Shown here: positions 4,499 to 59,988 of the stretch, in pieces
Layout: the number at the start of each line of letters is the position of its first letter
Position numbering within the stretch: the first letter of the stretch is position 1
Origin: Siphonodentalium dalli
Taxonomy: Eukaryota; Mollusca; Scaphopoda; Gadilida; Siphonodentaliidae
Direction: 5' to 3'
Assembly: GCA_032622095.1 (NCBI GenBank)
Contig: CP136064.1
Span: 49,978,073-50,042,072 of the forward strand
Length of the DNA: 64,000 nucleotides
Notes under the pieces: generated by a model
Database searches by the model: none
What the model saw: only the letters and a program-made list of their open reading frames with translations
What the model was told of the DNA's origin: nothing
Position numbers and translations under genes: made by a program

Positions 4499-4567
4499 GC
4501 CAATGCATTCTCTTATATATGCGAGTCGACCATAGGTCGCCTCGCATATATAAGAGAATGCATCGGC
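4499..4567. repeat. Hairpin module, left hairpin
   Basis: A 69-bp near-perfect palindrome beginning gccaatgcattctcttata and ending in its complement, with a short ATA loop between gcgagtcgacc and ggtcgcctcgc. The same hairpin recurs in the order hairpin, AT-rich spacer, inverted hairpin at several sites in this window. Confidence 0.9.
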
Positions 4568-4647
4568 TTAACACATTAAAAATTATAAAATTGTTAAAGA
4601 ATGTAAGAAAAAATGGTAAAAATTGTTAAAAAAAAGATTTTATTTAG

Positions 4648-4716
4648 GCCAATGCATTCTCTTATATATGCGAGGCGACCTATGGTCGACTCGCATATAT
4701 AAGAGAATGCATTGGC
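4648..4716. repeat. Hairpin module, right hairpin (inverted)
   Basis: The same 69-bp palindrome, but in the opposite orientation. The single asymmetric position in the stem (gcgaggcgacc against gcgagtcgacc) is reversed relative to 4499-4567. The two hairpins therefore form terminal inverted repeats of one another around an ~80-bp A/T-rich spacer. The outer flanks are ccctgtgcc and ggcacaggg. Confidence 0.9.
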
Positions 4717-4869
4717 ACAGGGCATAACTGTAACTATCACAATGTGGTCAAGGAGCCGGTTCCAATGATATCCATATTTGTATGGTTCTATTGAGACAGA
4801 CCGAAGATATTTTAGGCTGTTGAAGCTTTATTTGGCCGGTTTTGGCCGGTTTGTTGGGTAAAGGGTTAA

Positions 4870-5445
4870 ACCACCTGGGGCGTTTGTTTCATTTTGTGTT
4901 GCCTACATCAGCAAATCATTCGAACGGATATATGCGAATGACATTTCCATCTTTTTGGTGCATAAATGTATATCGTTTGTTCTTATTTGCCAACTGTGTA
5001 GAATATTCAATATGTTTTTTCTGCCATTGTAAATTTTATTAGATTCCGGCCATTTTGACAGCTATTTCTTGACCTGGATTGCTGCTCTTTGGTCTATTTC
5101 CCGCCCATTATTTGCACTTCTCATATTACGTACACTCGAACGTAACTGTACCATATCCAAAGCTGCAAACATCAGCATAAAACAATATAACACAAGAAAA
5201 CCATAGTCAGAAATGGTAACGCCACCAAGATCGTATTATTAGCCATAAATATAAATAATAATACAATTATTCTATAAACTAGCTTTCAAATTTTATGCGG
5301 GAAATTTGCGTACTTCCATATTTCAAGTTTTCCCGTTTCTCGTGGCATACATTACTTTCATCAAACTGTCTTCTTTATTACACAAGCTGATAGGCCCGAC
5401 TTCACCCGGGCTGTTTCACATCTGCTTTCCGGTGAAAGGTGCGAT
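4870..5445. other. Unassigned sequence
   Basis: No gene or repeat recognised. The last ~50 bases lead into the ~130-bp tandem array. Confidence 0.5.
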
Positions 5446-5958
5446 TTGACCTTCAATTGACTATTTCGAAAGTCAAGGTCAGGTCAGGGTCATGATTTGT
5501 CCAGTCCAAAACACCCCCACCCGTAGAAAACTACCCATAGGTATCAAATTTCGTCGAAATCCGTCCGTTTTACCCAACTTGACCTTTAATTAACAATTTT
5601 GAAGGTCAAGGTAAGGTCAGAGTCATGATTTGACCCGTCCAAAACACCCCCCCCCGACAAAAGTACCCATAGGTATCAAATTTCGTCGAAATCTATCCGT
5701 TTTATCCGAGTTGACCTTTGATTGGCCATATTGAAGGTCAAGGTCAGGCCGAGGTCACGATTTGACCCGTTCAAAACTCTCCTCAGACCAAAGTATCCCT
5801 AGTATCAAATTTCGCCGAAATTTGTCCGTTTTACCCAAATTGACCTTGCATTGACAGTTTTAAAGGTCAAGGTCAGGTCGGGGTCACGATTTGACCCGTT
5901 CAAAACACTTCCCGGACACAAATACCCATAGGTATCAAATTACGTTGAAATCTATGGA
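5446..5958. repeat. Tandem array, ~130-bp unit, four copies, rich in AGGTCA
   Basis: Units start at 5446, 5579, 5711 and 5840 (lengths 133, 132, 129 and a partial ~119) with the shared order ttgacctt, aaggtcaaggtcaggtc, cgatttgacccgt, caaaacac, cccataggtatcaaatt and cgtcgaaat. The units differ by about 10-20 percent, so the array is old. Each unit holds several direct AGGTCA-like hexamers. Confidence 0.9.
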
Positions 5959-6395
5959 AAGCCGAGGAGGACATGTTGGTTGCTAATTGCTAGATATACG
6001 ACGCGGTATTTTGAAGGTGTTTCAAACTAGGAGATAGAAGTATTCTGCCTTTCAAATGGTGATGAATTATAGTAGTTTATTCAAATTTTATGGCATAAAT
6101 TGTTATTAAAACCGTATATACTATAAAAAATTAATGACTCGAAAATTAAGTGGGCCTTTAAACAAAGTCACAATTGCATTTAGGCTCATCTCATACTCGT
6201 CCATTCAGCGATATTCTACTGCGCAGTTTGTTATAGCCTCCAGTATTTATTGAGCGTTATACCCCCAACTGTTATAATTCGCCTTTAGCAGGCGTACTCT
6301 TGCCTCAGATTATTGAGATATTAGGTCACACATAATCACATTAAATCGCATCGTAACATAGCAATTGTGTGGGCTCCTTGGCGTGAATATGTAAT
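5959..6395. other. Unassigned sequence
   Basis: No gene or repeat recognised between the tandem array and the duplicated unit at 6400. Confidence 0.5.
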
Positions 6396-6399
6396 GAGA

Positions 6400-6690
6400 A
6401 ATAAGGTCATACGTAATGACATTAAACTCAAGAAAACCCTCGAAAACAAAACAAAATCACATTTAATGTTTTACGTTATTTCCTTCATCAAAAGAATCTT
6501 CGTGATAATGAACCCTCTCGTTACTTTAGAATATAGAATTAACCTTAAAATAAAAAAAATCTTTGGAACACAGAACCTTCGGAATAACGAACCTTCGGAT
6601 TGGTGAACCTTCGGAATAGCGAACATTCAGAGAAATTTCGGAATAGTGGACCTTCGGGATAGTGAACCTTCGGAATAGAGCCATGCCCCC
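6400..6690 (+). repeat. Direct duplicated unit, copy 1, ending in CCTTCGG minisatellite
   Basis: The run from cgtaatgacattaaactcaa through aacaaaatcacatttaatgt and aatgaaccctctc to a CCTTCGGAATA array (about 6566-6680) recurs in the same order at 6890-7185. Both end in the same motif, gaatag then agccatgcccc or aagcatgtcccc, which suggests the terminus of a mobile element rather than a random array. Confidence 0.75.
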
Positions 6691-6889
6691 CAATATTCAT
6701 ATTATATGCCCAGAGTTCAAAGGTATGGACCCATAAAATTCTAAACTTGGCCCTTAAAATAATGAACTCCAAATTGGAGCACACACAGAACACCACTTAA
6801 GTCAACTGAACCTATGTCATGTCCCAATGCGGGAGGGTCCATATATACCACAACATTCATAGTATATGCCAAGAATTCAAAGGTATGGG
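6691..6889 (+). repeat. Short direct repeat between the duplicated units
   Basis: The motif attcatattatatgcccaga followed by gttcaaaggtatgg (about 6695-6730) recurs as attcatagtatatgccaaga plus attcaaaggtatgg (about 6855-6890), about 160 bp apart. Confidence 0.6.
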
Positions 6890-7185
6890 CCCACGTAATG
6901 ACATAAAATCTCAAGAAAACCAGCGAAAACAAAACAAAATCACATTTAATGTTCTAAGTTAAGTTATTTCCTCCTGTATCTGTATCGGTGTGCGCGCATG
7001 ATCAGTTCGGATGTGAGCGCACACTCCATATAAAGAATCTTTGTGAAAATGAACCCTCTCAAATTAGTCTCAATACTTTAAAATATAGAATTAACCTAAA
7101 AATAACAAAAACCTTCGGAATAGAGAACCTTCGGAATAGCGGACCTTCGGGATAGCAAACCTTCATAATAGAAGCATGTCCCCAC
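6890..7185 (+). repeat. Direct duplicated unit, copy 2, ending in CCTTCGG minisatellite
   Basis: Second copy of the 6400-6690 unit, with an extra ~60-base insertion near 6975-7030. Its minisatellite (about 7107-7170) has fewer units and again ends in a catgtcccc motif. Confidence 0.75.
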
Positions 7186-9166
7186 AATTACACCGGTGAC
7201 GTAAACACATGTGCCAATCTTAGTTGTACTCTCGTAATTATCGGTACGATGAAACGGTGACGGAATCTGACGAGGTTTGCCGAATGTACAATCACCCAGT
7301 GAATTATCGATCGCCCATGCGATACAAAAAAACCAAAAGCAATAAACACCACACTACGGTGGCGTAATAAATTGAATCTGAAACACCGCGAAGAGGCGTG
7401 ACTGTCCGATTTATTAAGTCAGGGTTAACTCAATCACACGTCTTAAAGGGGTGTATAGGACCAAGGTGGACGCGCAGGTCGAATCCGTCCTATAGAGTAC
7501 CAACATGTCCCCTACACCACAACTCATTGGGTGCAGCCACGCAAACAGGGTGCCACATAAGGGGATTCTTTACCCTCGCAGTGGGGCCGTGTACCAACTC
7601 TACCCGTGCCCATTGCACATGGGGATTTATTACCATTAAAAAATAAACTTTCCTCGAAGTTTGTACCGAGGAATCCCATGTGTATATACTGATACATGAT
7701 TGCAGTTTTCTAAAAGTTGGGAAACCTGTTGATTTAGTCGGAAGGTATCAACAAATAAGTGAGCTAAAATAGAATTTCTCGAAGCGTGCTGTTATATGGC
7801 TGACTTTGAAGAAAACGTGTAATATAAACTCGTATGTATATACCCTGCCCACACAATATGTCACAAATCCCCTGACCCGATCCCTATATCTATTATTGTT
7901 TCTATCAGTAGCCCTATTGCGAGGAGATTAACGTCTAGAATCCTATGAGGCAGTAGCATTGGGTATCCATTTCAAAGTTAACCATTTACCTATACATTTC
8001 CCTTATACATTATGAAATTATTTTGGTGAACTATCCAACCATGTGGTAAGTTCTGCCGAAATCATAACGTTCTCGAAAATCGTCAACAGGGCTATTTCAC
8101 CTCATTGGTACCGCCCTCCATCAGCTGTGGACGAAATGGTTAGAGTGTTTCCAATGGTGTTGTACATGTATGTACCCTTTATAATTGAGTATAATATTCC
8201 GTTGAATAATCAACGGGTTTATTTGCGTTTCATATTACACCCTGTGCATACAACTCCTAAAGTATACCATAATGCCGTTCCGTGACCGTCGATCAAAATC
8301 CTTCTTTCAAACCATGGACAATCCGTTGAAATTTACAGCTCAAAGGCAAACACAGAGCAATCAAACCAGTGATGGGGGTCCAACTTTGGTCAAAATTTTC
8401 AACAGTTTGTGGGAAATTTTACGCCACATATAAGTTGAAAATGTTCTCATTGTTTGATTTTCCAACCAATAATAAGTGGGAAATTTATTGTTTTTAGACC
8501 AACTGTAATTTTGCTCTGAAATTGCTTTCAGTGGGAAATTTCCAAACTTAGTTGGTGTCATGTTGGACATTTCCAACTCAATTGGGGTTCAATTGTATTT
8601 TCGTGAACCTTGGATTTAGATCTGGTTCAAGGGAAGGGGCGGGGTTAGAAATATCAATGTGGACCCCTCCCTCCCCCAACGGAGATCCTCTATCACGTCC
8701 CTGAACCAAACCCGTCAGATCTCCATATGAGTAAGCTATCCAAATCGATATACTATAATATTACTATAGTATATTATACGAGGTTATTCGCGTTATTATT
8801 AGAGTTATTTCTGATGTTCCTGTGTAGGATTGAATGAATATTAGGATAATTTGTAATAATAGCACTAGAAAATGTGATCATATGTATGCTCGCGCTCGGT
8901 AGTGATATTTCAAAGATCGTTTATACTCCATTCGTTTGGCATTGAACGTCGAATATCAATCGCAACTCGACTTATGGCTGAGGTAATTTCAATTTAGGTT
9001 GCGCAGACATTGCTATTGCTTTTTTGACATGGAAGCCATGACCAAGTTTTAGAAAACTATATTTTCCGTAAACAAAGCCACTGTACATCTTCAAATTAGT
9101 GGATTCGCTGAAAATACTTAAAACGTTCCATGACTGAAGCTTCCTGAAATTTTGCGAAAAACTTGT
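7186..9166. other. Unassigned sequence
   Basis: Nearly 2 kb without a recognisable gene. Short ORFs at 7398-7646 and 8043-8285 match no family I know. Several scattered gtgggaaattt phrases (8400-8540) recall similar wording near 45090-45420, but no alignable repeat is evident. Confidence 0.45.
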
Positions 9167-9328
9167 GCCAATGCATTCTCTTATATATGCAAGTTTGACA
9201 TCGGGCCTCACATATATATGAGAAAACATTGGCCTAACAATATTTACCTTTATCTTGTAAACCAGTGCATTCTCTTATATATGCGAGGCTCTCTATGGGA
9301 GACTCGCATATATAAAAGAATGCGCACC
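9167..9328. repeat. Diverged double hairpin module
   Basis: Two decayed relatives of the 69-bp hairpin (9167-9233 and about 9262-9328) separated by a short spacer. Stems are interrupted by mismatches (for example tgcaagtttgacatcgggcc). This is an older copy of the module seen at 4499-4716. To its right, gcacccgtcatgaaaggatt then aa resembles the flank at 17135-17162 (gccccgtcaagaaaggttta), hinting at a shared carrier element ending at TTAA. Confidence 0.7.
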
Positions 9329-9589
9329 AGCGCGGCACCCGTCATGAAAGGATTAATTAGTGCCAGAAATGGTCAGCCAATATAACGTTAGTGAAATTTG
9401 GTACAGTTCCTAAATGACACCTGGTAAAGTCAAAATCATATTTTCATACCAAAATTAATCTACTTGCACTAATAAGCCAGTGGGTGTACTAGATTATCAT
9501 ATCAGGATTCATTATATTGTGATTTTCATAAGGATTCAACTTTAGTTCGATTTTTAAGTTCAATTTTATTTTATTTTTAGAAATATTTT

Positions 9590-9955
9590 CTGCTCAGAAT
9601 ATGAGACATATAACTTACTAATGAATATCTCCTTTTGAATTTCAACAGTACCTACAGTTTAGAAAACATGTTTGATTTAATGTGAATGTAGTTCACCAGC
9701 ATCAAGCGTTTTGAATTTTGTTCATAGCAGCCAATCCATATAGCAACACACCGATTCCATATATACCAATCGTTGATATATATATGACATGAATTTCTCG
9801 AAAGTGCGGGGTATCTAAAAAAAAAGAGCTATAAGCTTTCTGAGAATCTTGTATAGTGGCCTATATATTTTCAGTTTCAACAGTAGCTATAGATCAGAAA
9901 CGTGCCTAATTTACTGTGAATTTAGTTAACTGGCATCAAGCCATTTGAATTTGCA
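9590..9955 (+). repeat. Two-copy direct repeat, ~234 bp apart
   Basis: The stretch at 9636-9720 (ttcaacagtacctacagttt ... cagcatcaagcgttttgaat) recurs with changes at 9870-9954 (ttcaacagtagctatagatc ... ggcatcaagccatttgaatt). This is an old segmental duplication of about 85 alignable bases. Confidence 0.65.
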
Positions 9956-10771
9956 GCGATTTTTAACTAAACTTTATTTGAGGGTGGTAAACTTGACACC
10001 TCAGCGTCATCAAAATACTGTTTTCATATTGGCATCAGTGTAAACAATATTTATTCTCCCCAACATAAATATAATATTGTAACTTTAAACAAAAAGCAAT
10101 AGATGAAATCACATTGAATATTAGCATTGGTAATCAGAATCAAATCCATAGCTAAAGCAACACTGGCCATCTGGTCGTGTTGTAATATGATGTTGTTGGC
10201 TGCTGCTGATTTACCTATGATGTTGGGTCCTGCTCACATAGCTGATGTTGATTTGTCCTGTGACTTAGCCATGATGTTGTTGGGTCCTCCTGAATTAGCT
10301 GTATGGTGTTGTTTGGGAAAAGCAAGGCTGTATCGCTAAATTTTATGACATTGTGATTCCAAGATGTTTGGCTATTTAAAACAATTTAAAGGGACTCAAT
10401 GCACTCGCTGTGTGTAAATGTCCAAACCAATTAAAGTTTGTACAAATAGCACCAGTTAGAAGAACATGGAGAAAGATAAACTTTGTTATTATATTCATTA
10501 TATATTCATCCAAAAACGAAATTTCGTGTATTGAAATCATTGTTATGTAAACACAATTCTTACAGTAATTTTTAAATGGTCTCACCCTTTCAAATGTTTG
10601 CGTCAAGGTTTGGTTAAATATTTGTGTCATTTTGGACTTATTGTATCTTTATCGGCAATTCCACTGTAAGCAAACATCTGTAAATAACACTGGTCCCAAC
10701 ATGCGAAATTTCGTCACTGGAGAGTTATCCAATAACAGGGGTTTCATCATCATAAACTTTCATGTGATATA
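9956..10771. other. Unassigned sequence
   Basis: No gene recognised. A gatgttg-rich, imperfectly repeated stretch lies at 10185-10310 (tgggtcct and agctgatgttg phrases); it makes a short open frame that has no recognisable domain. Confidence 0.45.
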
Positions 10772-10942
10772 TAGAGAATACCTACGAGTTTTGGTTGAAT
10801 ACCCGAATTATCTCATGAGTGGGTGCAAGGAAGTACAGAATTTCCACGAGCGGCTGCAAGCCGCGAGTGGAAATTCTGTACTTCCTTGCACCCACGAATG
10901 AGATAATCCGGGTATTCAACCAAAACCCGTAGGTTTTCTTTT
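10772..10942. mobile_element. Foldback palindrome, GAATACCTAC family, full copy
   Basis: A 171-bp near-perfect palindrome centred at about 10857 (gcggctgcaagccgc). Arms begin agaatacctacgagttttgg and run through gggtgcaaggaagtacagaa. The same end sequence (gaatacctac, gtttgaatacc, tctcattcgtg) is found in 53945-54108 and as a half at 11900-11998, with a different inner core. Probably a foldback-type non-autonomous element. Confidence 0.85.
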
Positions 10943-11335
10943 TATTATATGCGCTATAAACCGCACCAAAACTGCTAATTTTGTCCTACAGTTCACTTCA
11001 AATTGTTAGAAAGCTTCGACATTTGCATTTTGTTTACATTCCATCAATTGATTTGCTCACCACCGAATGACAAATATCGAGCATAGCCGCCATAAGAAAT
11101 AGTCCCCATTGTTTTATTCTGAAATGATGCGAGAAAATTAATGTATACATAATTTAGTGATAAGAATATATTAAAACAAATGAGTTAACATTATAACAAT
11201 TAAATAACAGTTTATGAACCGTGAAAATCAATAATTAAAACAATAGTCCGGCTGTTATTGATACGCTTTGAAACTTAATGTGATTCGCCGCTATAAACCG
11301 GAAGTAATCTCCGAAAAAGTAATACTATTGTGTTA
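10943..11335. other. Unassigned sequence
   Basis: AT-rich sequence with no recognised feature. Confidence 0.5.
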
Positions 11336-11392
11336 TCCATCGAGTCGGTCAGTGTTATCCACCGAGTCGGTCAGTGTTACCCATCGAGTCGG
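11336..11392. repeat. Three-copy short tandem repeat
   Basis: Three copies of a ~24-base unit (tatccatcgagtcggtcagt and close variants) in a row. Confidence 0.8.
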
Positions 11393-11439
11393 TCCAGGCG
11401 ATGGATATAACGCTCTACGCCACGGCAATTTCCCACTAT

Positions 11440-12000
11440 TTAATGGGGAAGCATATAATAAAATATTTTATTACATGCTTGGCCATAAAATAGCAGGAAT
11501 TAACCGAAACTCAGATCGTTGTATTTATCCCTTAGAAGCCACAGTGAAAACGATGTCGTTATTTCACTCCAGATAGTGTTATTTCACTGTAGCTTTCCGA
11601 CATCCAATTATCGATTGATCATGAAAGTGTCGCCATCGGGTCGGCGTTTTTGATTGGCTAGCCGCACCATGTAGTTGTGACCCGGCCGTGACGTGGGATT
11701 TTTTATATTTCGACTGTGGTGACACGGAGACTTGTTAGTTTCGATTCCGTATTTCATTTGTCTTGTTGATTTATCTAGGTAATTGTGCACTTATTATTTC
11801 GAGGAAGTATTCTTCCTAGTATTGTTAAAATTGCTGTACTATTAAAATTAAAAATGACTCATAACTTAGAATATTTGAGCTTTAATAATGTGCATATAAT
11901 AAAAAGAATACCTACAGTTTTTTGTTTGAATACCTGAAACATATCATTCGTGACTGGAAAGAAATATCGAATTTTCACTGGCGTGTAGCCGCTCTCCAGA
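11440..12000 (+). mobile_element. Element related to the insert at 53560-54110, with half foldback
   Basis: Shares ordered blocks with 53560-54110: the atgcttggcc and aatagcagg stretch, then ttatcccttagaagccacag, tgtcgttatttcactcc and, 300 bases later, the gaatacctacagttttttgt foldback arm (about 11903-11998). Only one arm of the palindrome remains here. No coding capacity was seen. Confidence 0.65.
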
Positions 12001-12483
12001 CAATCATGTGCAGATATTCTATATATTCTCAAAATATTAGGAAGCTCTATTCATATAAGGGTTAACTATCCATTCATGACTGTTCGATCGATATACTGTT
12101 TTCTTGAAGGGTTGGGTCGGACCAAATGATTGTTCTAATAGCCGACTACTACGCAAGTGTCAAATATCTGTCAATTAGTCGAATTGTGCGTGGGTTCCCT
12201 ACTCGCGCCGCATGATGGGGTCAAGGTTACGTTCACCTACAGGTAGCAATCTTGGTTGGCAAATGAATGTTCTTCACATATATCTATCTGTTGCACAGTT
12301 CTATGTGTTACGTTTTGGAATTACAGCATATGCAACTTCGATTGGTGAATTGCTTCTTGTAGCTATAGAATACCACGAGTCGTTTCACGGTTGATATGTT
12401 GGCAGACATTGAAGGCTAATCTCGGGTAATAGTCAGTTGTAGAATACAGGCATCAATTAATGTTGGCGGACATGAGCAAAATG
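12001..12483. other. Unassigned sequence
   Basis: No gene or repeat recognised. Confidence 0.45.
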
Positions 12484-14011: not shown

Positions 14012-14015
14012 TTAA

Positions 14016-15024: not shown

Positions 15025-15028
15025 TTAA

Positions 15029-16717: not shown

Positions 16718-17126
16718 GCATTGTAGGTGGCATCGCATATATAAGATAATGCATTAGCCTAACTATATTTACATTGACCTTGTAAGAAAGTGCATTCTCT
16801 TACACTGTAGATATGCATGGCTCCCTATGGGAGATTCACATATATAAGAATATAAAAAATATATTATAAAAATTATAAAGAATGTAAGAATTTTTTTATA
16901 AAATTGTTAAATAATACAAGACCGAATGATAAAAATTGTTATAGAATGTAATATAAAAAATTATAAAAATTGTTAAAGAATATAAGAAAAATGATATAAA
17001 AAAATGATAAAAATTATTAAAGAATGTAAGAAAAGTGGATAAAAATAATGTTAGGCCAATGCATTCTCTTATAAGAGAATGCGACCTATTGTCGACTCGC
17101 ACATATAGGAGAATGCATTGGCACAG
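16718..17126. repeat. Decayed hairpin-module cluster around an AT-rich tandem spacer
   Basis: Contains partial hairpins at 16718-16759, about 16790-16852 and 17053-17126 (the last ending gaatgcattggcacaggg). Between them, 16860-17045 is an imperfect tandem of ~40-base A/T-rich units (aaaattgttaaagaatgtaa and variants), which is an expanded form of the spacer seen at 4568-4647. Confidence 0.75.
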
Positions 17127-17448
17127 GGTCTTTAATGTTGCCCCGTCAAGAAAGGTTTAAATGCTCATTTCATAATTTTTTTTAAGTGGCCTTGCAAAGT
17201 CTTGAAGGGGGCGATCCATTGTCTGTATATAACCTCGGCAGTCGCCGTGAATGTCGGAACAGTCGAGTGGTTGGACATTCGGAACGAGAAGGGCGGTATT
17301 TTTTATGTGAATGCCAACCGACGAAGCCACAAACCAACATGTAACGCAGCTTTAGTGTGTTGGGGTTCTTCGTGACATTTATACATTTCATCAAGCATAA
17401 TAGTTATTCACCAATCGCATGCGGCCCATGCGCAACATTTCCGAAACC
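17127..17448. other. Unassigned sequence
   Basis: Short flank gccccgtcaagaaaggttta resembling the flank of the hairpin module at 9328-9355; otherwise nothing recognised. Confidence 0.45.
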
Positions 17449-27232: not shown

Positions 27233-27404
27233 TTACTTGACAAACACGCGCAATTTAAATATGATGCTTGTAGTTTTTCGTCCTGGGCACGGATCAACGA
27301 GGCAGAACTTCCAGCACGCGTGCTGGAAGTTCTGCCTCGTTGATCCGTGCCCACGACGAAAAACTACAAGCATCATATTTAAATTGCGCGTGTTTGTCAA
27401 GTAA
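27233..27404. repeat. Near-perfect 172-bp palindrome
   Basis: Two 86-bp arms meet with no loop at CACGCGTG (27315-27322). Only one mismatched position was found by eye (cctgggc in the left arm against the right arm). Identical ORFs on both strands are a trivial consequence. Such structure extrudes easily into a cruciform. Confidence 0.95.
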
Positions 27405-38796: not shown

Positions 38797-39036
38797 TCAC
38801 TCATATTTACCATTTGATTGTCTTACCGCAGCCAGCTGTAGGCGAGATTATCGGCCACTGGCCGAAAGGTGAATTTAAAAGAGTTTTGAAAGAGTCGGGC
38901 CCCTGACTACATCTTTAGTTACTCGAGGGCATTGCGCATACTTCCCCATTGACTACTTCAATATATTATCATATACATAGTCATAATTATTTACCTGGTA
39001 TCTCAACGTTGTGTTGACATGATTTTAAGGATGAGT
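38797..39036. other. Unassigned sequence
   Basis: Possible upstream intron of the SWIM exon; no other signal seen. Confidence 0.35.
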
Positions 39037-39040
39037 TTAA

Positions 39041-39534
39041 AGGCACGTGAGGCCTTAGTTGTCGAAAATATTCATATTTGTTCCAATCACCGTAAACAGA
39101 AAAACATTAAAACGCATACAGTTTCGTTCATGTATACCATGACCATGGCGTAAACAGCATGTTATCATAAAGATTTACTATATTTTACCTAAGCAAGAGC
39201 CTGATCGTGTTACAGAAGACAACACAATGCTGCTGGCTAATCACACACAAATGGCATAAACGCTCTTTATTCGTTCCATATCAGGAATTCACCCACAAAG
39301 AACGCTCTTTATGTTTACCATCATAATATAAACAAACACCAGAAAAGTAACTTTTTATGCTTTTGTTTACATAACAATGGTCAAAAATATGACAATAACA
39401 TACTGTTTATGCGATATTTCTTATTTGTATACGGACAAAATATGTCTACATTTTGTTGTTTTTTCTGTTTGTGGCGGTTTTTGACGGGCGGAAATATTTT
39501 CACAGGATACCCACCGCCAAGGCCGCACGTGCCT
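39041..39534 (+). mobile_element. TTAA-flanked MITE, AGGCACGT subfamily A, best-preserved ends
   Basis: A 494-bp element with ends AGGCACGTGAGGCCTT and AAGGCCGCACGTGCCT, flanked by TTAA at 39037-39040 and 39535-39538. Inside it are taaacgctctttatt and aagaacgctctttatg, an internal inverted motif shared by all copies. Non-autonomous. Confidence 0.95.
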
Positions 39535-39744
39535 TTAATGCGAAAAGCCACAAATTAATGTGGAACAAGCATGATAACATATATACACTATGTACATTGG
39601 TATGAATACTAGTTTCATCAGAATTTCAAGTTCATACATACTAAATTGTATGTAATACTTATATAAATATATCATATGTATACTGTATACATATATATGC
39701 ACACGTGTATAGCTATGTATATCTCTATAGATCAGTGTACTATC
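39535..39744 (-). repeat. LINE 3' untranslated region, second copy
   Basis: gcgaaaagccacaaattaat then gtggaacaagcatgataaca matches 36955-37000; an AT-rich microsatellite (39655-39735) follows as in the other copy. The neighbouring MITE has inserted at or near the LINE end. Confidence 0.6.
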
Positions 39745-40200
39745 TTAGTTATATTCTTTAAAAACATGTTTCAAATAAGTGCTAACGTTCTTCAATATTG
39801 ATATATTTTCAATAGCATGGAGGCCATATAATTTTTCTAGTGAAGGGTTCAACCAGTAACAGTCAGGAATGTATTTTCTTCTGATTGTGACAAAATTGTC
39901 GCAGATAAAAAGAATATGATACTCGTCACATGTTCCGAACCGCACATTTTACATAGTAAACTCTCGTGTTTTCGCCATATGGAAAGCTCGTTTGGCAGTC
40001 TATAGTTCGCTGTCCTAAATTTCACCAATGTTGGTATGAGATGTTGTGGTTGATAAATAAGTTAGCGAATAATACTCGAGTGACGCTTTATGTTATTATA
40101 TAAAGTTCCTCTTGATGATTTAGATGCTTTCATGTCACGAAACATTTTAACCCAGTGGTGTTCAATTAGATGAGATTTAATATTCTGCATAGTGGAGGGA
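39745..40200 (-). pseudogene. Second LINE C-terminal fragment, frameshifted
   Basis: Minus-strand frames give LVKFRTANYRLPNELSIW then, after one frameshift near 39945, TCDEYHILFICDNFVTIR and ISILKNVSTYLKHVF. This is the same module, in the same order, as 37352-37837 but more diverged and broken. Upstream sequence toward 40240 is weakly LINE-like. Confidence 0.75.
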
Positions 40201-40350
40201 GCGTTTGATTGCTGAGCTGGAGTTGGTTATCACTGTCACAACCTGGCGCTCTTCAGAACCTATACAGACATCCTTGGGATCTTGAACGTACAACTCATTT
40301 TAAGCTTCGTACATGTAATTGAGAGAATGATTATCATAACATGCATTTAA

Positions 40351-40844
40351 AGGTACGGTTGGCCTTGGCGGTGGGTATCCTGTGAAAATATTTCCACCCG
40401 TCAAAAACCGCCACAAACAGAAAGAACATCAAAATGTAGACAGACTTTGTCCGTATACAAATAAGAAATAGGGCATAAACAGTATGTTATTGTCATATGT
40501 TTGACCATTGTTGTGTAAACAGAAGCATAAAAAGTTACTTTTCTGGTGTTTGTTTATATTATGATGGTAAACATAAAGAGCGTTCTTTGTTGGTGAATTC
40601 CTAATATGGAACTAATAAAGAGCGTTCATGCCATTTGTGTGTGATTAGCCAGTAGCATTGTGCTGTCTTCTGTAACACAATCAGGCTCTTGCTTAGGTAA
40701 AATATAGTAGGTCTTTATGATAACATGCTGTTTACGTGATGGTCATGGTATATATGAACGAAACTGTATGCGTTTTAATGTTTTTCTGTTTACGGTGATT
40801 GGAACAAATATGCATATTTTCGACAACTAAGGCCGCACGTGCCT
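40351..40844 (-). mobile_element. TTAA-flanked MITE, AGGCACGT subfamily A, reverse copy
   Basis: A 494-bp copy in reverse orientation, ends aggtacggttggccttggcg and aaggccgcacgtgcct, flanked by TTAA at 40347-40350 and 40845-40848. With 39041-39534 it brackets the second LINE fragment as an inverted pair. Confidence 0.95.
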
Positions 40845-40848
40845 TTAA

Positions 40849-41913
40849 AGTATTTCAACATATATTTTTGCCATACTTTTGAGAGAATTTGTTTGTGTGT
40901 GTGCCAAAATCATGAACATTCAAAGCAACAAATATGGCGTTATGAGCTATTTATATGTGCGTTTATATCCGTGTAAACAAGCGGCAACATTCCCCACTTG
41001 AATCTGTAAGACGTGACTCATTCACAGGTTACCAATCTATCAAATTGATCTCGGTTTGGTCACACACCTGTCGGTGTTATCTAGAGTTTTATGGATTGTA
41101 ATAGGTGAATGCCTTGTTTGTGTTCAGCAAAAAGTTATTTAAAAAACGTCTTCAGGTTCTCAGATCTTGACAGTTTGCCTCCACGGCCCATCAACGTTAT
41201 TAGACATGACTTGCATACTATTAATTAGAGGAACCACCTGACGCTTTGTGAGTAATAGACATGGCAACTGTTGAAGCAGTACTGGCTCACAACATCTCAA
41301 TCTAGGGTTGTCAGCTAACTGAACTGTTGTCTCACCGAACAAAAAAGGACTCATTACTTTCACCCCGGTGCACAGGCACCTGAGAAGTTCATCCCTAATC
41401 AAACAGATACAAATCAGGGGTCCCTGTGTTGTAGCTATGTAGAGAGGTTAACTATAATGGTCCATGTGATCCAGCGATTTATTTCAAGACGAATTCATAT
41501 GAGTCCATGAATGGTGGGTTACCAAGACCTATACATGCAATGTGTGTATATATACACCGAAAACGAAACAGGTGCACGGGTCATAATGTCGTGTTTTTTT
41601 TGGGTCGAAATCATTGATTTCCGAAAACGGTGGCGTGAATATAATCACCCCAAGCACGACGCCACGATGTTCCTGGTTTGTTCTTGGTCTTGTCTCGGTT
41701 TTACAATTTTACGTTGAGAATGACGTTGTGGTGGTGAACTTTTAAGGACGGATATTCGAATACACCGAAGGGTGCAACCAGCATGCCAAATTCCAAGCTT
41801 AGACAACGCCATGACGAACACAACACTATTTCAATACATATCAATTGAGGTCAACGGTGTATATTATGATAATAATACATTTTCAATGTATGATACTCTG
41901 CGAAACATGTTGC
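40849..41913. other. Unassigned sequence
   Basis: About 1 kb without recognisable gene or repeat. Confidence 0.45.
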
Positions 41914-42432: not shown

Positions 42433-42436
42433 TTAA

Positions 42437-42828
42437 CCCTTTACCCAACAGAACGGCCCTGTGCCAATGCATTCTCTTATATATGCGAGTCGACCATAGG
42501 TCCTCTCGCATATATAAGAGAATGCATTGGCTTAACACATTAAAAATTATAAAATTGTTAAAGAATGTAAGAAAAAATGGTAAAAAGTGTTAAAAAAAAA
42601 ATTTGTTTATGCCAATGCATTCTCTTATATATGCGAGGCGACCTATGGTCGACTCGCATATATAAGAGAATGCATTGGCACAGGGCATAACTTTAACTAT
42701 CACAATGTGGTCAAGGAGCCGGTTCCAATGATATCCATATTTGTATGGTTCTATTGAGACAGACCGAAGATATTTTAGGCTGTTGAAGCTTTATTTGGCC
42801 GGTTTTGGCCGGTTTGTTGGGTAAAGGG
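42437..42828. mobile_element. piggyBac-like MITE, CCCTTTACCC ends, copy 2, with double hairpin
   Basis: CCCTTTACCCAACAGAACGG at the left, ccggtttgttgggtaaaggg at the right, TTAA at 42433-42436 and 42829-42832. 392 bp. It is nearly identical to 4473-4865, so both copies are recent. The hairpins are at 42463-42531 and 42611-42679, in opposite orientation to each other. Confidence 0.95.
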
Positions 42829-42832
42829 TTAA

Positions 42833-48798: not shown

Positions 48799-49271
48799 CA
48801 TATACGTGACCCGCCATATCAAATCCAGTCGTAAGTCGGGATTTTTTTTACCATGTGCCAATGCATTCTCTTATATATGCGAGTCGACCATATGTCGCCT
48901 CGCATATATAAGAGAATGCATTGGCCTAACAATTTTTTACAATTTTAATAATTTTTTCTTGTATTCTTTAACAATTTTATAATTTCACCCATACAGAGCC
49001 CCAGACAAACATGAGCAGACGACACTCTTCTATATGCTTCTATATATGTGTGGGGTTCCCTGGAGGGTAATGGATGTTTTTTATTTTATGTCCTAAATAT
49101 TGTAAGAAACATTTATTTAAAAAAAATGATAAAATGTTTTTAGGCCAATGCATTCTCTTATATATGCGAGGCGACCTATGGTCGACTCGCATATATAAGA
49201 GAATGCATTGGCACAGGGTAAAAAAAAACCCGACTTACGACTGAATTTGATATGGTGGGTCACATATATAC
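48799..49271. mobile_element. Large inverted-repeat element enclosing a double hairpin
   Basis: Outer arms acatatacgtgacccgccat then atcaaatccagtcgtaagtc (left) and its complement at 49218-49271 (right) enclose two 69-bp hairpins (48857-48925 and 49144-49212). In folded form the whole 473 bp is a stem whose two arms each bear a side hairpin. The middle (48990-49080) holds non-repeated sequence, including a ctggagggtaatgg stretch. Confidence 0.85.
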
Positions 49272-53425: not shown

Positions 53426-54227
53426 CCCCCTTTTTTTAAACTAAATAATCATTGACGAGTAGTTCCCTTCGGAAATGTTCAGATAATAAGTTCAACAAAC
53501 AACCATACAGTTGTTGAACTTATTATCTGAACATTTCACATCAATGAATGAGAATCCTTCTTCACTTAAATTATATATGTTATTATATGCTTGCCTATAT
53601 AATAGCGGGAAATTACCGAAACGTATATCGTTGTATTTATCTCTTAGAAGCCACAGTGAAATACGATGTCATTATTTCACTCTAGCGTTATTTCACTGAT
53701 GGTCTTGAAACTAACACGAACTGTTAAGGTAGATCGATTGGTCATCATGATTGCTTGCTCACTGTCAGCTAGCCAATAAAAATCGACGAATTTAAGACTG
53801 CGTGTGATCAATGACAATTCTATGTTTGAGTAGCAGAGTGTCAAATTCAACTTTACGCCTAAGCTCTTTCCTATTAGTGAAATTAAGTACAGTTAATTAA
53901 TTAAGACTTAACTTAGCAACTTTGAGCTTAAATAAGCCGCATATAATAAACAGTTTTTTGTTTGAATACCTGAAACATCTCATTCGTGTCGGAAAAGAAA
54001 TATCGAATTTTCACTCGCGGCTTGTAGCTGATGGTGAAAATTCGATATTTCTTTCCAGACACGAATGAGATATTTCTTTATTTAAAAAAACCCTGTAGGT
54101 ATTCACTTTATTTTTTCGCCGGTCTGTCATCGGCTCATTTTCCATAACACCCCTCCAAATGAACAATTGAACTTTCCATTACATACTTTCAAAACCGGGT
54201 GGAATAGTCCATTTAGTAAAGAAATAT
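53426..54227. mobile_element. piggyBac-like MITE, CCCTTTNTATAC ends, copy 3, interrupted
   Basis: Left end ccccctttttttaaactaaa, internal hairpin aaatgttcagataataagtt / aacttattatctgaacattt (53476-53537), right end gtccatttagtaaagaaata. About 545 bp at 53566-54110 is an insertion, since its flanks (gagaatccttcttcac and cggtctgtcatcggctc) join to match the uninterrupted copies at 13860-13920 and 47845-47900. TTAA sites are decayed. Confidence 0.75.
53566..54110 (+). mobile_element. Insert related to 11440-12000, with full foldback
   Basis: Contains ttatctcttagaagccacag and gatgtcattatttcactc, both found at 11530-11570, and ends in a foldback palindrome (53945-54108: gtttgaatacctgaaacatc ... 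cgaattttcactcgcggctt and complement). It sits inside the MITE at 53426-54227. Confidence 0.7.
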
Positions 54228-54499
54228 AACATTTCAACATATTGACTCACCCATATGTCATGTTACACGCATGCTTCACACATATAACCCCAATATAATA
54301 ACGAGAAGAGAAGTAATATATTGTCATGAGAGCAAAATACATCAATTTGGACTGTTTTATCCATTGATCATTGTCGTCTTACTCTGACAAAAAAGTGAAC
54401 TCCGTGGAATTATGTCACTATCTTGCCATTTGATGCTCCGATGCCCATGTTCGTGATTAAATTTACGGGATGGGCCAGTTTGCAGTCAAAGGATTTGTT
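54228..54499. other. Unassigned sequence
   Basis: Nothing recognised before the satellite. Confidence 0.45.
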
Positions 54500-55430
54500 A
54501 AATGTGACTGAGAATGGCCCAGGGATACACATTGTTAAATGTGACTGAGAATGGCCCAGGGATACACATTGTTAAATGTGACTGAGAATGACCCAGGGAT
54601 ACACATTAAATGTGACTGAGAATGGCCCATGGATACACATTGTTAAATGTGACTGAGAATGGCCCAGGGATACACATTGTTAAATGTGACTGAGAATGGC
54701 CCAGGGATACACATTGTTAAATGTGACTGAGAATGGCCCAGGGATACACAATAAATGTGACTGAGAATGGCCCAGGGATACACATTAAATGTGACTGAGA
54801 ATGGCCCAGGGATACACATTAAATGTGACTGAGAATGGCCCAGGGATACACATTAAATGTGACTGAGAATGGCCCAGGGATACACATTAAATGTGACTGA
54901 GAATGGCCCAGGGATACACATTAAATGTGACTGAGAATGGCCCAGGGATACACATTAAATGTGACTGAGAATGGCCCAGGGATACACATTAAATGTGACT
55001 GAGAATGGCCCAGGGATACACATTAAATGTGACTGAGAATGGCCCAGGGATACACATTAAATGTGACTGAGAATGGCCCAGGGATACACATTAAATGTGA
55101 CTGAGAATGGCCCAGGGATACACATTAAATGTGACTGAGAATGGCACAGGGATACACATTAAATGTGACTGAGAATGGCCCAGGGATACACATTAAATGT
55201 GACTGAGAATGGCCCAGGGATACACATTAAATGTGAATGAGAATGGCCCAGGGATACACATTAAATGTGACTGAGAATGGCCCAGGGATACACATTAAAT
55301 GTGAATGAGAATGGCCCAGGGATACACATTAAATGTGACTGAGAATGGCCCAGGGATACACATTAAATGTGACTGAGAATGGCCCAGGGATACACATTGC
55401 CCTGAGAATGGCCCAGGGATACACATTGCC
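54500..55430 (+). repeat. 34-bp satellite, about 26 copies plus one partial
   Basis: Unit aaatgtgactgagaatggcc then cagggatacacatt. The first six or so copies carry an extra gtt (37 bp), the rest are 34 bp. Substitutions are rare (gactg/gaatg, one accc, one ccat, one gcac), so the array is young or efficiently homogenised. The last unit is truncated and ends cattgcc. The unit has no reading frame that persists. Confidence 0.97.
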
Positions 55431-55782
55431 ATTTCCAGATGAATGTGATATATGTCGAATATGAATATCCGTATTTGGTCTGGTCACCTGTTGGGGAAAT
55501 GGGTGCAAATCCAGATGTTATAAATACAGAAGTATACAACCAAAGCTCAAACTTAAGGCGCACGATGAACTGTTTATACGTGTTCCACTCTTGAAAGTGT
55601 CAGTTTTGTATTTTCGAAATGGATGTAGATTTTGTTGCGTTCCGTGGAACATTGTTGCAAGTTGGTCTGACATCAGTCCTTATATTTACTCTAAACTGGA
55701 AGATTAAAAGAAAATTTATTGCTCAAACTGAATGATATTCTTACAGCGCGTTTCAAGTTGCTGCCATACAATCAATTATATG
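55431..55782. other. Unassigned sequence
   Basis: No gene or repeat recognised. Confidence 0.45.
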
Positions 55783-55790
55783 GAAACTTG

Positions 55791-56284
55791 TTGGGGTGCA
55801 ACGATGCATCGAGATTTCAATGCATTACGATTCTTTCTCTGCATTGCATCGTCGGGATGTTACTTCGATGCATCACGACTCACAGTTGTTTGAAATTTGT
55901 GTATATAAAACCCTGAGAAAAAAAAACTTATTTTGTCTGCCCCCCCCCCCCCCCACAAATATCCAACAGCTGTGCTATCCATGTACTGAAGTTTGACTTA
56001 GAATTTCCAACCTTTCATCCAACAAGTTTGGGGACAATCCGACTGCATGTAAAACTGTTTCAGTTGTTCTGTCAATTTATCACACACTATATATTTGTAA
56101 CACATAGATATAGAAAAATTGGCTAAACTTCAAGGTACACACATTTACTGTATATAGCTGTATATCATGCATAATTCTGAAGTGACAATTGTCAGGTTCA
56201 TCAACCTAAGTTTGAATCGCATGTTAATTGGGGGAAATCGTGATGCGCATTGCATCGTGAACCATCCGCATCGTTGCAGTCATA
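55791..56284. mobile_element. hAT-like MITE with 8-bp duplication
   Basis: Left end ttggggtgcaacgatgcatc, right end complement tatgactgcaacgatgcgga. The flanks gaaacttg (55783-55790) and gaaactag (56285-56292) form an 8-bp target duplication with one mismatch. The gNgtgcaacgat end is characteristic of animal hAT elements. 494 bp, no transposase; it includes a run of 16 C near 55941. Confidence 0.8.
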
Positions 56285-56292
56285 GAAACTAG

Positions 56293-57061
56293 TTGGGATA
56301 TCCACGGGACGTCATACAAAGCGATCTCAACCAACCAACGTCCGGGATTCAAGTTTCACACTTTGATTGCACATAATACCACACATGAGCGTAAATATAT
56401 ACCCGTATACGTCATACAAATGTGTGCTGATATCATGCAGCGGGGAATACAAAACATCTCAATTGAAAATTAGCTACAGATCAGCGGCAGTACGTCATAG
56501 GTCAGTATTCACTTGATATCGTATCAATAAAATGAACCATTCCGTTTTTATCTTCGACACAGGAAGCGCCTCATTTCGCGAGGAAGCTTACATGCGAACA
56601 GACTTGTCTCAGATAATTTACGCATTCGCAGATAATCTAATGACCCCGGAAATGTTTTGTTTTCTGGTCGATGATATTTATATGTATACTTTGACTTCCG
56701 CGTTATCCAAAGTTGTTTGAATTTGATAATGAACGTTATGGGATCGCGGGATTGATATGGTTTAGTCTATTTTATATAATGAGTGCGTATATTCACATGT
56801 CCATGTACTCCACAATTCACGAAATAGTTGCTTCTTCTGTGTGCACCAGTCATGTATAAATTTGTCCGCAATCATTCTCATGCATGTGTCCAGGTTTATG
56901 ATGGCACAACCTCACCTGTATGTATTTTGTTACCGATTCGTTAGTCGGTTTAAAAGATACAGCCCTAATCCATTATATTCCATGGATGATGGATTACATT
57001 TCTCTATAACGATGCCATGTATATATGTTTTGTGTATTTCTTCGTGAAGAATTTCCTCCAA
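56293..57061. other. Unassigned sequence
   Basis: No gene or repeat recognised. A 62-residue frame at 56532-56720 has no known relative. Confidence 0.4.
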
Positions 57062-57065
57062 TTAA

Positions 57066-57478
57066 AGATGCATAATCCGAATTAACGCTCGCAAATTACT
57101 GGTCCCTTGGCTTCGGGGGTACTACACATTTTATTCGAGTCGAGGAACCCACCCATCAATTAGATATCGATTTTTTAAATCTATCATTTTTCACCACCAA
57201 TAATTTTTTAGTGGCCCAGTAAACGTCGACGAGAAGACGGTCTCGGACCAATTGCGGATGAAGATGGATAATTCTAAAATCAAGTGGCCTTTTTGTGTCA
57301 GCAATTTCGTTGAGCAAAATGTTGATAAATAACAGGTTTTGGGGCAATATTATACTATAGTTGACTGTGGTTAGCATTATTTTTGGGCAATTAATCGAAT
57401 CTGATAACTGAAGCGAAATTTCAAAAATTGTTGTTGAAATATGATGATATGGGGACCATCTAATCGGATTGAGTACCT
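57066..57478. mobile_element. TTAA-flanked MITE, AGGTACTC ends, copy 2
   Basis: TTAA at 57062-57065 and 57479-57482. The right end atcggattgagtacct is intact; the left end agatgcataatccga has decayed. Interior matches 1365-1440 (tggcttcggg, tcgagtcgaggaacccaccc, tagatatcgatttt). 413 bp against 407 bp in copy 1. Confidence 0.85.
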
Positions 57479-57482
57479 TTAA

Positions 57483-58189
57483 TAATTAGTAAATACTATC
57501 CAAATTTATCAAGTCTTTGGCTCCTGGAATTCCTTATTACAAATGCAAATTAAATACTTCCATTTGAAATCATTACAAATACAGTACAAATAGAGAATAA
57601 GATTACCCCACCCCTGCTAGTTAATATAGATGTACATGTATATATCAAGTGAGTTTAAGTATATCAGTAAAATTTCTAAAGTGTGCATCTTAAAACGCAA
57701 CAAACCTTCGGTTAAACTCAGCCACCAAGAAATAAACTTTATATAAAGAGGAATGGCTCTCAGGTGGACCGGCTAAAAATAAAAAATCCCTGACGGAAAT
57801 GTGATTATAATATAAGATACTGATACACACGAAGATTAATTACCCGATAACAGGTCCATTTGAACCCGTTTCGTTCGCGTGGCCCGCGCGTGCTCCATAT
57901 TATTCCACAGCAGGTTTCTTCTATCTTAAGTTCTATTAAGACGATTAAAGTCTGCCAGATGCAAAGTGTTATTTATCAAGATATAATTGAAAGACTCCGA
58001 TTTCATGGTTAAATGTTTGTAAAGTTTGTATAATATTATGTTTCTGGTTTCTACACCTATTACCCAGAGTACAGTGCCATTCGTGTCGACTATATATTAC
58101 ATTCCGATGTACTTTTCAGTCCCAGCACTGACTCCCAGATGTCCAGTTTATCAACATGAAGTACTCAGAATTATCTGCATATATACAAG
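57483..58189. other. Unassigned sequence
   Basis: No gene or repeat recognised. Confidence 0.45.
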
Positions 58190-58360
58190 AGTAGGATCCG
58201 TATATTTGTCCGGATCTTTCTCCCAGACCCTTCGACCGATTTCAACCAAATTTGGTGTTGTGACTCGGGTTATAACGGCTTTAGTTTTTTTTCTTCAAAT
58301 ATTGTATATAATTTTTTTTAATTAATACATAAATATAAAACAAAAAACAATTAAGCTCAC
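58190..58360 (+). repeat. Dispersed repeat with ccgatttcaaccaaatt motif, copy 2
   Basis: ctcccagacccttcgaccga then tttcaaccaaatttggtgtt, gtgactcgggtt and an A/T-rich tail, as at 21905-22100. Confidence 0.6.
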
Positions 58361-58660
58361 TATGACCTTATTTCAGAACCAAAAAAGTTTAATATGAACC
58401 TATGTAAATATTTAGGTCCAACATGAACCTATTTGCACGAGGATATGTTGCAACACCAGATGTATACGCTCTTTATAAGTATTTTCACTTTAGTCCGCGC
58501 CATCCAAATAGGTTCATTTTTTACCTAAATATTGATATTGGTTTATATTAGACTGATTTGATTCTGGAATAAGCCCATAGTGGACTTATACCCATAATAC
58601 CGTTGGGTATTAGACTTATTTCAATCCGGAATAAGCCCATAGTATCCTTAACATTTTAAC
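58361..58660. repeat. Aataggttcat-type foldback remnants
   Basis: catgaacctatttgcacgag and the inverted aaataggttcatttttta lie ~80 bases apart; aataagcccatagt occurs twice at 58573 and 58634. These are fragments of the family seen at 27500-27742. Confidence 0.45.
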
Positions 58661-59065
58661 GATCAAAATGTGCGCATAAAATGTGCGTAATGCACACAAA
58701 TGGGCCGCCGCTGAATAAAGGCTCTGTCTAAGATCAAAATGCGCGAGAAGAGAGCCTGTTTTTCTCTCTTTAGTATATTATTATAAATGGTATAAAAGTA
58801 CATAGACACCATTTGAAAGAACCGTCCCTGTTGGAATTTCCAAAGGACATGTTACTACAAATTATGTATATTATTATATACTAGCTGAAAACGGCTCCCT
58901 GTCACAAAGTGACTGACGGCCCTAATTTTTTGCACTAATTTAAAATTAAAAACTTTTTTTTATTTATTGGGCTAACTTACAGTCCTGCATGATATATCAC
59001 AACTGCACACATGATTCATACCAAAAAATAAGGAAAGTCCACTTAAAAGCTGTGTAAATAGAGAA
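58661..59065. other. Mostly unassigned; inverted match to 46548-46640
   Basis: ctgaataaaggctctgtcta then agatcaaaatg (58710-58740) is the reverse complement of sequence at 46600-46640. Nothing else recognised. Confidence 0.5.
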
Positions 59066-59158
59066 AATGAATGTAGTTTGAATGTGTTTTATTACCGTCA
59101 GTGCCCAAGCGGCAACAGCGTCATACTCTTAACAAAAAAATACTCAAACTACATTAAT
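59066..59158. repeat. Short inverted repeat
   Basis: atgaatgtagtttgaatgtg at 59066 and tactcaaactacattaattt at 59140 face each other; a single similar word (gaaagtagtttgagtgtgtt) is at 32617. Confidence 0.6.
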
Positions 59159-59531
59159 TTCTTAAATGTGCCATGTGACTGCACTTCATACCATGTAATG
59201 TAAAACATGGGTAGTATGCCCACGTCCTTCATAAGAAATGAATCACCGATAGTAACAATGATACGGAAGCAATGCCCAACAGTTCAATATCATTTCTCAA
59301 CATTTTTGATGAGACGTTTCTTTTGGCAATTTGCAATGTTATATAATATTTATACTTTCACCGCTTGGATTAGACCTCCGCGCACACGTTTAGTAACACG
59401 TGATCACTATACGTGAGTCTGATTGGTTTATACGGACACCATATAATCGATGTCTATTAGATCGATCTCTTGGTTGCGTGGAATCAAAATTCGCAGGAAA
59501 CAAAATAACATGGTGAAGTGTGTGGGATTAA

Positions 59532-59988
59532 CCATTTGAGTTCCAGGTCTGATTTTTGTATCAACCCATATACCCTGTGCCAATGCATTCTCTTATATAT
59601 GCGAGTCGAGCATAGGTCGCCTCGCATATATAAGAGAATGCATTGGCCTAATAATTTTTCATCATTTGTTATTATTTTTTACAATTTTTTACAATTTTAA
59701 TAATTTTTTCTTATATTCTTTAACAGACTTATTTTGTAGGTTTAGTGCCAGGGAATCTCACGTTTTTCATGGGCATCAAAATTATTACTATGAATACTTG
59801 GTGATAGTTTTTTAGTTATAACATGCCCCTAAGGTTTTATCCAGTTTGTTTTTAAATTCGCTATAGCAAGCTTAAACATACCCAAAAAAAATTCAACCAA
59901 AAAAAAATAATCTAAAAATGTTTTTTTAGGGCCGATTTTACACACCGTAAATTGGGGCCGATGACATCGGCCCCTGGCACTCAAAGGG
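59532..59988. mobile_element. piggyBac-like MITE, CCMTTTGAG ends, with one hairpin
   Basis: Left end ccatttgagttccagg, right-end complement ccctttgagtgccagg, flanked by TTAA at 59528-59531 and 59989-59992. This end type (CCCTTTGAGTGCC after TTAA) is typical of piggyBac families. It contains a solitary 69-bp hairpin (59579-59647) followed by half of the AT spacer; the partner hairpin is missing. Confidence 0.9.
59579..59647. repeat. Solitary hairpin module
   Basis: The same 69-bp palindrome as at 4499-4567, preceded by ccctgt, in a carrier with different ends. The spacer after it (acaattttaataattttttc) also matches that at 48945-48965. Confidence 0.9.

Follow-up and report, generated by a model that had tools for sequence, protein, structure and literature searches.

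A palindromic hairpin module shared by at least four families of small non-coding transposons in the genome of Siphonodentalium dalli

Introduction

The success of miniature inverted-repeat transposable elements (MITEs) is usually credited to their end sequences, which let them use a borrowed transposase. The coral CMITEs, as described in the report on them, are TTAA MITE families that have differing, mostly CCCTTT-type ends and share a conserved internal region of 75 bp (PMC2872659). Its authors considered that this region may aid transposition and left its origin unsettled, estimated about 1,600 copies in one species and described tandem arrays (PMC2872659). The transposase dimer of piggyBac and piggyBat is described as binding palindromes close to the transposon ends through two C-terminal domains (PMC11707139), and among bacterial REP sequences one group is reported to feature a conserved stem mismatch, a bulge of the kind that the Escherichia coli REP transposase needs (PMC8266576). 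Here we analyse a 69-nt imperfect palindrome that recurs in a stretch of the genome of the scaphopod mollusc Siphonodentalium dalli (assembly GCA_032622095.1, contig CP136064.1, positions 49,978,073 to 50,042,072), where an earlier note, made from the letters of the stretch, had described it as a mobile module carried by unrelated elements. The whole 64,000-nt stretch is called the window, and all positions given without a contig name are window positions.

Structure and abundance of the palindrome

The window contains seven good hairpins of 69 nt each, starting at 4499, 4648, 42463, 42611, 48857, 49144 and 59579, which are the seven places named in the earlier note. Each consists of two 33-nt arms and an ATA loop, and in the common form all pairs match except for one T:C mismatch. 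This mismatch lies off-centre, with T at position 28 opposite C at position 42, and it therefore gives the hairpin a direction. All seven hairpins face outward with a common foot, CCCTGTG, which reads CCATGTG in the left hairpin of one carrier (C, below), and the foot side is turned outward in nearly all sampled genome copies. The usual arrangement, as the note had it, is a pair of hairpins facing each other across an A/T-rich spacer; the copy at 59579 belongs to a family with a single hairpin (B, below) and is not half of a pair. The module thus comprises the foot, the 69-nt imperfect palindrome and an A/T-rich inner arm of about 50 nt, and when paired it forms an inverted repeat in which each arm is a palindrome in its own right. 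RNA folding of 4499-4567 gave -50.1 kcal/mol, compared with -13.9 (sd 2.8) for shuffled sequences (z -13), and DNA-strand folding of the whole module gave -94.3 (z -24). The decayed copies that had been noted at 9167, 9262 and 16718-17126 are real, the last extending to 17128, and were assigned to an older carrier family, D.

The palindrome is present in well over 100,000 copies in this one genome, which comprises 2,226,750,531 bases in nine contigs. Exact matches to a 19-mer of the arm number 158,302 on one strand and 158,106 on the other (316,408 in total), against none for the reversed control, which excludes chance. A 25-mer spanning foot and arm has 71,663 and 71,312 exact matches (142,975 in total). 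If half of the 19-mer matches are taken as outer arms, one for each hairpin, the longer sequence recovers about 90% of them. The 25-mer of the tip including the mismatch was found 59,729 and 59,471 times, and the D-type tip without the mismatch only 30 and 22 times. On contig 1, between about 735 and 926 kb, hairpins follow one another at a regular spacing of about 14.6 kb, which then changes to about 11.2 kb, indicating that some copies lie within large tandem duplications.

Carrier families

The palindrome sits in at least four different MITE families, here called A, B, C and D. Carriers were identified in a carrier-blind sample, in which the 19-mer had to be accompanied by a fixed 8-mer at a distance of about 550 bases; this gave 83 matches (41 and 42 by strand) distributed over all nine contigs. 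Of these, 78 loci were taken with 1,371 bases each, after dropping one same-element match and four members of a six-member cluster on contig 5. Carrier class was assigned from the flanks at a score cut of 0.6, with the four loci below this cut judged by eye. This placed 48 loci in A, 16 in C, three in B and seven in D. Among the four below the cut, L042 is D by its flanks, while L057, L082 and L065, representing two events, lack complete C ends. L057 and L082 both feature a C interior without C ends and are 98% identical to each other, so they are one duplicated locus and one event. L065 was considered as a fifth carrier and rejected, because direct repeats flank it and part of one C end is present; no fifth family was found among the 78 loci. 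One locus counted under A, L074, is a composite that resembles B on one of its sides. Selection by the exact 19-mer favours intact hairpins, hence separate end-sampled sets were added. The module had been attributed to two piggyBac-like MITE families and an unrelated third element, and is found here in three TTAA families plus C; the possibility raised in the same note, that all copies lie in one carrier family, was checked over the 78 loci, which fall into four. The window features that carry hairpins are as follows.

4473-4869, + strand: carrier A copy 1, a TTAA-type MITE; left TTAA lost, right end ..GTTGGGTAAAGGGTTAA
4493-4722, + strand: module in A copy 1; foot, hairpin 4499-4567, A/T spacer, hairpin 4648-4716, foot
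42433-42832, + strand: carrier A copy 2; complete, TTAA at both ends
42457-42685, + strand: module in A copy 2; hairpins 42463-42531 and 42611-42679
48806-49263, + strand: carrier C element; ends GTGACCCGCCATATC.., flanking 4-mers ATAC and ATAT
48857-48925, + strand: left hairpin of C
49144-49212, - strand: right hairpin of C
59528-59992, + strand: carrier B element, TTAA-CCATTTGAGTTCCAGG .. CCTGGCACTCAAAGGG-TTAA; one hairpin only
59579-59647, + strand: single hairpin of B
9117-9356 (ends approximate), + strand: decayed D element; hairpins near 9167-9233 and 9262-9323
16718-17160 (ends approximate), + strand: decayed D remnants; hairpin pieces 16724-16849 and 17042-17128, A/T spacer

Carrier A has the layout TTAA-CCCTTTACCCAACAGAASGG..module..GTTGGGTAAAGGG-TTAA and is about 400 bp long. 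Carrier B reads TTAA-CCCTTTSAGTGCCAGG and features a single hairpin close to one end; its facing end pairs are, among those listed, mostly about 220-280 bp apart, and longer forms exist, the window copy being one. Family D is an older TTAA family, in which the hairpins are mostly 83-88% like the young ones and often only about 14 bases apart. TTAA was seen at both ends of most complete A and B copies and, by eye, of several D copies, where the A and B ends had partly been sampled with patterns that include TTAA. The ends of A, B and D have a CCYT-type start (CCCTTTACCC, CCCTTTGAGTG, CCCTTTCATGAC), which is described as the end motif of TTAA-type piggyBac-like MITEs (PMC2872659), and further carrier end sequences are CCCTTTACCCAACAG, CCCTTTGAGTGCCAGG and, for C, GTGACCCGCCATATC. 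Genome-wide, the left end of A was counted 21,793 and 21,838 times on the two strands, the end of C 8,840 and 8,883 times and that of B 7,409 and 7,560 times.

The ends of carrier C read GTGACCCGCCATATCAAATCCAGTCG, and none of 20 paired ends showed a TTAA target duplication. The flanking 4-mers were identical in 16 of these 20 pairs, which were matched by pattern and of which one (the second pair at L108) joins the ends of two copies: ATAT in 13 cases, and ATTT, AATT and AAAT once each. ATAT alone would fit a TA duplication, but a TA-type assignment was rejected owing to the three other cases, and the C target duplication is probably 4 bp, consisting of A/T only. The third element of the earlier note, placed at 48799-49271, does carry the module, although its bounds are now read as 48806-49263, with a non-TTAA, A/T duplication. 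Two C elements, L109 and L110, have apparently inserted into another hairpin, as palindrome-arm sequence flanks both sides of L109 and one side of L110. At L106 and L107 (contig 1, 4495954-4497739 and 4549531-4551340), a reading frame lies between C-type ends with partial hairpins. The L106 frame, the one that was scanned, matches the Bcl-2 family domain PF00452 (E 9.6e-11) and the L107 frame is very similar, which suggests a captured apoptosis-regulator-like gene within the transposon.

Position of the module within its carriers

In the loci sampled, the module is a fixed part that was acquired a few times and is not visibly hopping now. Three end-sampled sets bear on this: 20 A stretches from 100 listed A-end sites, all on contig 1; 20 C stretches from a contig-1 list, nine picked for odd spacing and 11 irrespective of spacing; and 20 B stretches chosen as facing pairs of ends. 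All 20 A ends run into the module. The same applies to 10 of the 11 unselected C ends, which run into the hairpin or a shortened form of it, with L118 having no hairpin there; four of these 10 are defective, by a truncated start (L113), a tip deletion (L121), a missing first part (L119) or divergence after the first hairpin (L117). The B stretches comprise 17 with a full hairpin, two with a partial hairpin and one (L152) in which it is deleted, leaving part of the foot and the spacer. No carrier predating the module was therefore found among 20 A, 11 unselected C and 20 B ends.

Conversely, no clear solo insertion of the module was found among the 78 loci, where L057/L082 is ambiguous. By eye, there was no direct duplication at the module edges, just outside ccctgtgcc/ggcacaggg, in A, B, C or D. 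L057/L082 was considered as a solo module and rejected: its flanks match separate repeats, and a search for an empty site with the joined flanks of L057 returned matches to these separate repeats only (40 scored of 529 candidates). With no carrier predating the module and no clear solo module in these samples, present-day independent jumping, which the earlier note had offered as one option, is not supported. Its other option, a functional part traded between elements, fits better.

The majority hairpin is identical over all 69 positions in A, C and 21 B stretches; the exact 69-mer is present in eight of these 21, and another of the 21 (L152) has lost its hairpin. Across the inner arm and spacer, C and A share 46 of 53 positions, C and the window B copy 44 of 45, and A and the window B copy 35 of 41, so that by sequence the inner arms of A, B and C are homologous. 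The identical majority hairpins support past transfer between carriers, and D is the likely source, since two D carriers (L028 and L077) hold young-type tips.

Conservation of the hairpin

Conservation was assessed in alignments of 62 A and 28 C copies, each matched by a single BLAST piece that spans 85% or more of the reference. Among the end-sampled A copies 19 of 20 passed this threshold (L085 failed), and removal of the duplicate L083 left 61 copies for counts of shared variants. Raw distance from the majority was 0.6-1.3% for the hairpin arms of A and 0.9-1.7% for those of C, against 3.3% in the A spacer, 2.8% in the A right flank and 2.2-3.1% in the spacer and ends of C, in a data set where many A and C copies were chosen by the exact hairpin 19-mer (for C, 15 of 28 belong to the 19-mer sample). 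Sites with shared variants in A (minor count at least 3, 61 copies) numbered 0 of 138 in the hairpins and 20 of 128 in the right flank (p 2e-7), and in the 19 end-sampled copies 1 of 138 and 15 of 128 (p 1e-4), with two shared changes in the hairpins and 61 in the flank. Private changes in these 19 copies were equally frequent in both, at 29 in 2,523 hairpin bases and 23 in 2,371 flank bases (p 0.58). Dead A copies thus decay evenly, and the source lineages vary outside the hairpin and not inside it. Such a deficit of shared variants at equal private mutation is compatible with constraint on active A copies or with recent replacement of the hairpin. Deletions of at least 8 bases in A numbered three in 40 hairpins and eight in the right flank, three of the latter from the badly aligned L085, and these counts do not support the A hairpins as deletion hot spots.

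The stem itself was examined by comparing 141 young hairpins with 28 diverged ones, defined as all those below 95% identity and consisting mostly of D hairpins with some decayed young ones. Both sides of the stem have switched together at pair 5 (A-T to G-C in 12 of the diverged hairpins), pair 30 (G-C to T-A in 19) and pair 31 (A-T to C-G in 12). On this comparison the stem changes appear compensatory, the palindrome being kept while its letters change. The T:C mismatch is retained in 138 of the 141 young and 19 of the 28 diverged hairpins, and five of the other diverged hairpins feature T:T and one T:A.

Candidate transposases and other repeats

A genome search for piggyBac transposase domains gave 128 scored matches, many of them in open frames. 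Many uninterrupted frames of about 500-720 amino acids were seen, with several groups of near-identical scores at different places, so the frames possibly reflect recent activity. A CCCTTT-type end of another kind lies beside TTAA at three of the 18 loci examined (L129, L130 and L134), which makes such ends plausible for piggyBac elements here; a lone CCCTGTGCC 9-mer was also found at L130. In a B copy (L142), the short palindrome GGGCCGATCTCATCGGCCC directly follows one terminal repeat and the 69-nt hairpin lies about 30 bases behind the other, a layout that recalls, by analogy only, the asymmetric arrangement of piggyBac ends.

Three further repeats were noted in the window: an inverted repeat at 27233-27404 with two 86-nt arms, 99% complementary and with zero spacer; an inverted repeat at 39036-40849 with 503-nt arms, 94% complementary and 808 nt apart, which may be another element with terminal inverted repeats (TIRs); and a tandem repeat at 54498-55427 with 27 copies of a 34-bp unit (96% matches).

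Discussion

We give a probability of about 0.5 to the reading that the module is a cis-acting part of MITEs, located near their ends and serving mobilisation, and not a present-day transposon. The module would be oldest in the TTAA-type family D, from which it would have passed to the other three, in a few founder events of uptake by A and B (TTAA-type) and by C (A/T duplication, probably 4 bp). These carriers would then have amplified it as a fixed part, with the intact palindrome kept in active source copies and decaying normally in dead ones. It may serve as a palindromic site that a dimeric protein binds, or that is recognised in extruded hairpin form; the simplest binder in the TTAA families would be the C-terminal domains of a piggyBac-type transposase, and elements bearing the module would be mobilised more often.

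Several observations weigh against this reading, chief among them carrier C and the missing autonomous partner. The target duplication of C differs, so one transposase hardly explains all four families. C also lacks the contrast seen in A, with shared-variable sites numbering 5 of 138 in the hairpins, 22 of 218 in the spacer and 9 of 104 in the ends (28 copies), and the end-sampled C copies likewise showed no clear difference between hairpin and carrier in shared variation, which weakens a general claim of conservation. Even in A, the 20-bp right end differs from the majority by 0.9%, as little as the hairpins do, and the pattern of shared variants is also compatible with recent replacement of the hairpins in source copies. 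Of the view that the hairpins are far better conserved than their carriers, what stands is the deficit of shared variants in A. No A, B or D end and no hairpin was found at the 18 of 128 piggyBac matches examined, within about 1.7 kb on each side, a distance beyond which ends would be missed. The right hairpin of A lies about 150 bp from the end, which is far for a transposase core site, and the compensatory changes represent few independent events, counted without correction for relatedness. A bolder form of the reading, in which a single selected palindromic cassette would act as an exchangeable transposition enhancer, raising mobility under different transposases (TTAA-type and A/T-target type), and MITE families would evolve by picking it up, seems unlikely to us. 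Were a shared internal part indeed constrained in source copies across different target duplications, this would mean that a portable, exchangeable mobilisation signal exists.

The hairpin could instead lack any function and have passed between source elements through recombination, gene conversion or template switching, events that long palindromes may themselves trigger, and would then look conserved as its present version is young in every carrier. This account, which we hold to be somewhat unlikely, accommodates the common majority hairpin of A, B and C alongside an A spacer that differs by about 10-20%, the equal frequency of private mutations in hairpins and elsewhere, the absence of special conservation of shared sites in C and the C interiors in rearranged surroundings at L057/L082 and L065. 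Nevertheless, the single outer edge CCCTGTG in all carriers is more regular than expected of random recombination, diverged copies feature compensatory stem changes and mostly retain the mismatch, and the A hairpins are no deletion hot spot.

That same defined outer edge in four carriers would be expected if the foot and hairpin, with or without spacer and second hairpin, were a non-autonomous mobile element in its own right, a parasite of MITEs that makes no target duplication, in the manner of mitochondrial double-hairpin elements or bacterial REPINs. The inverted pairing of imperfect palindromes and their conserved mismatch, which are described for one REP group (PMC8266576, PMC3116915), point the same way, as does the presence of the module without C ends at L057/L082. 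We nevertheless judge such an element improbable: the 78 loci include no anchor hairpin outside known carriers apart from L057/L082 and the truncated L065, L057 has no empty site, B carries only half a module, and no Y1 HUH domain was matched in the genome. The search for this transposase domain (PF01797) gave zero genome matches in an assembly that may have gaps, and was positive in five of 14 control genomes. A REP/REPIN-like Y1 HUH origin, which would explain the mismatch well, was rejected on this result. It is more improbable still that the hairpin is kept as RNA, as a 69-nt stem-loop transcript that gives rise to small RNAs or soaks them up and so helps carriers to escape silencing; the very stable fold and the compensatory changes would suit this role, but no Rfam family reached its gathering score within the window, and with a stem in common the carriers would be expected to silence one another.

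Comparison with known systems

The Kolobok T2-MITEs of Xenopus, in the account given of them, resemble the present elements in being TTAA-flanked, very numerous and long-lived, but their ends start with AG (AGGRR motif) whereas those of A, B and D start with CC (PMC6004289), and a Kolobok-type assignment of these three families was rejected owing to this absence of the purine (AG) end. Like the S. dalli elements, piggyBac and piggyBat feature subterminal palindromes laid out asymmetrically at the two ends, as described in PMC11707139; these palindromes are 14-19 bp long compared with 69 nt here, where binding is proposed by analogy. Bacterial REP, BIME and REPIN sequences are described as sharing inverted pairs of imperfect palindromes, a conserved foot and compensatory stem changes (PMC3116915, PMC8266576), but they are bacterial and tied to Y1 HUH transposases, which had no match here, and the hairpins in S. 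dalli sit inside MITEs.

We found no description of an element of exactly this design in the open literature, in a search that covered few subscription papers. The foldback elements FB and Galileo have ends that can self-fold and long repetitive TIRs, whereas the palindrome here is internal to ordinary short TIRs. Mitochondrial double-hairpin elements consist of repeated hairpin units suspected of mobility, in organelle genomes, and are not known from inside TIR elements.

By their description, the coral CMITEs are the nearest likeness, as several TTAA MITE families with piggyBac-type ends that share an internal region better conserved than the ends and occur in tandem arrays (PMC2872659). The coral region is 75 bp long, the main text of that report does not use the words palindrome or hairpin, and all of its families are TTAA-flanked. 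In S. dalli, the shared part is a palindrome with a retained mismatch, is usually paired, is found in 142,975 exact foot-and-arm copies and has one non-TTAA carrier. The present case is of the coral-CMITE kind, distinguished by the palindrome, the far higher copy number and a carrier with another target type.

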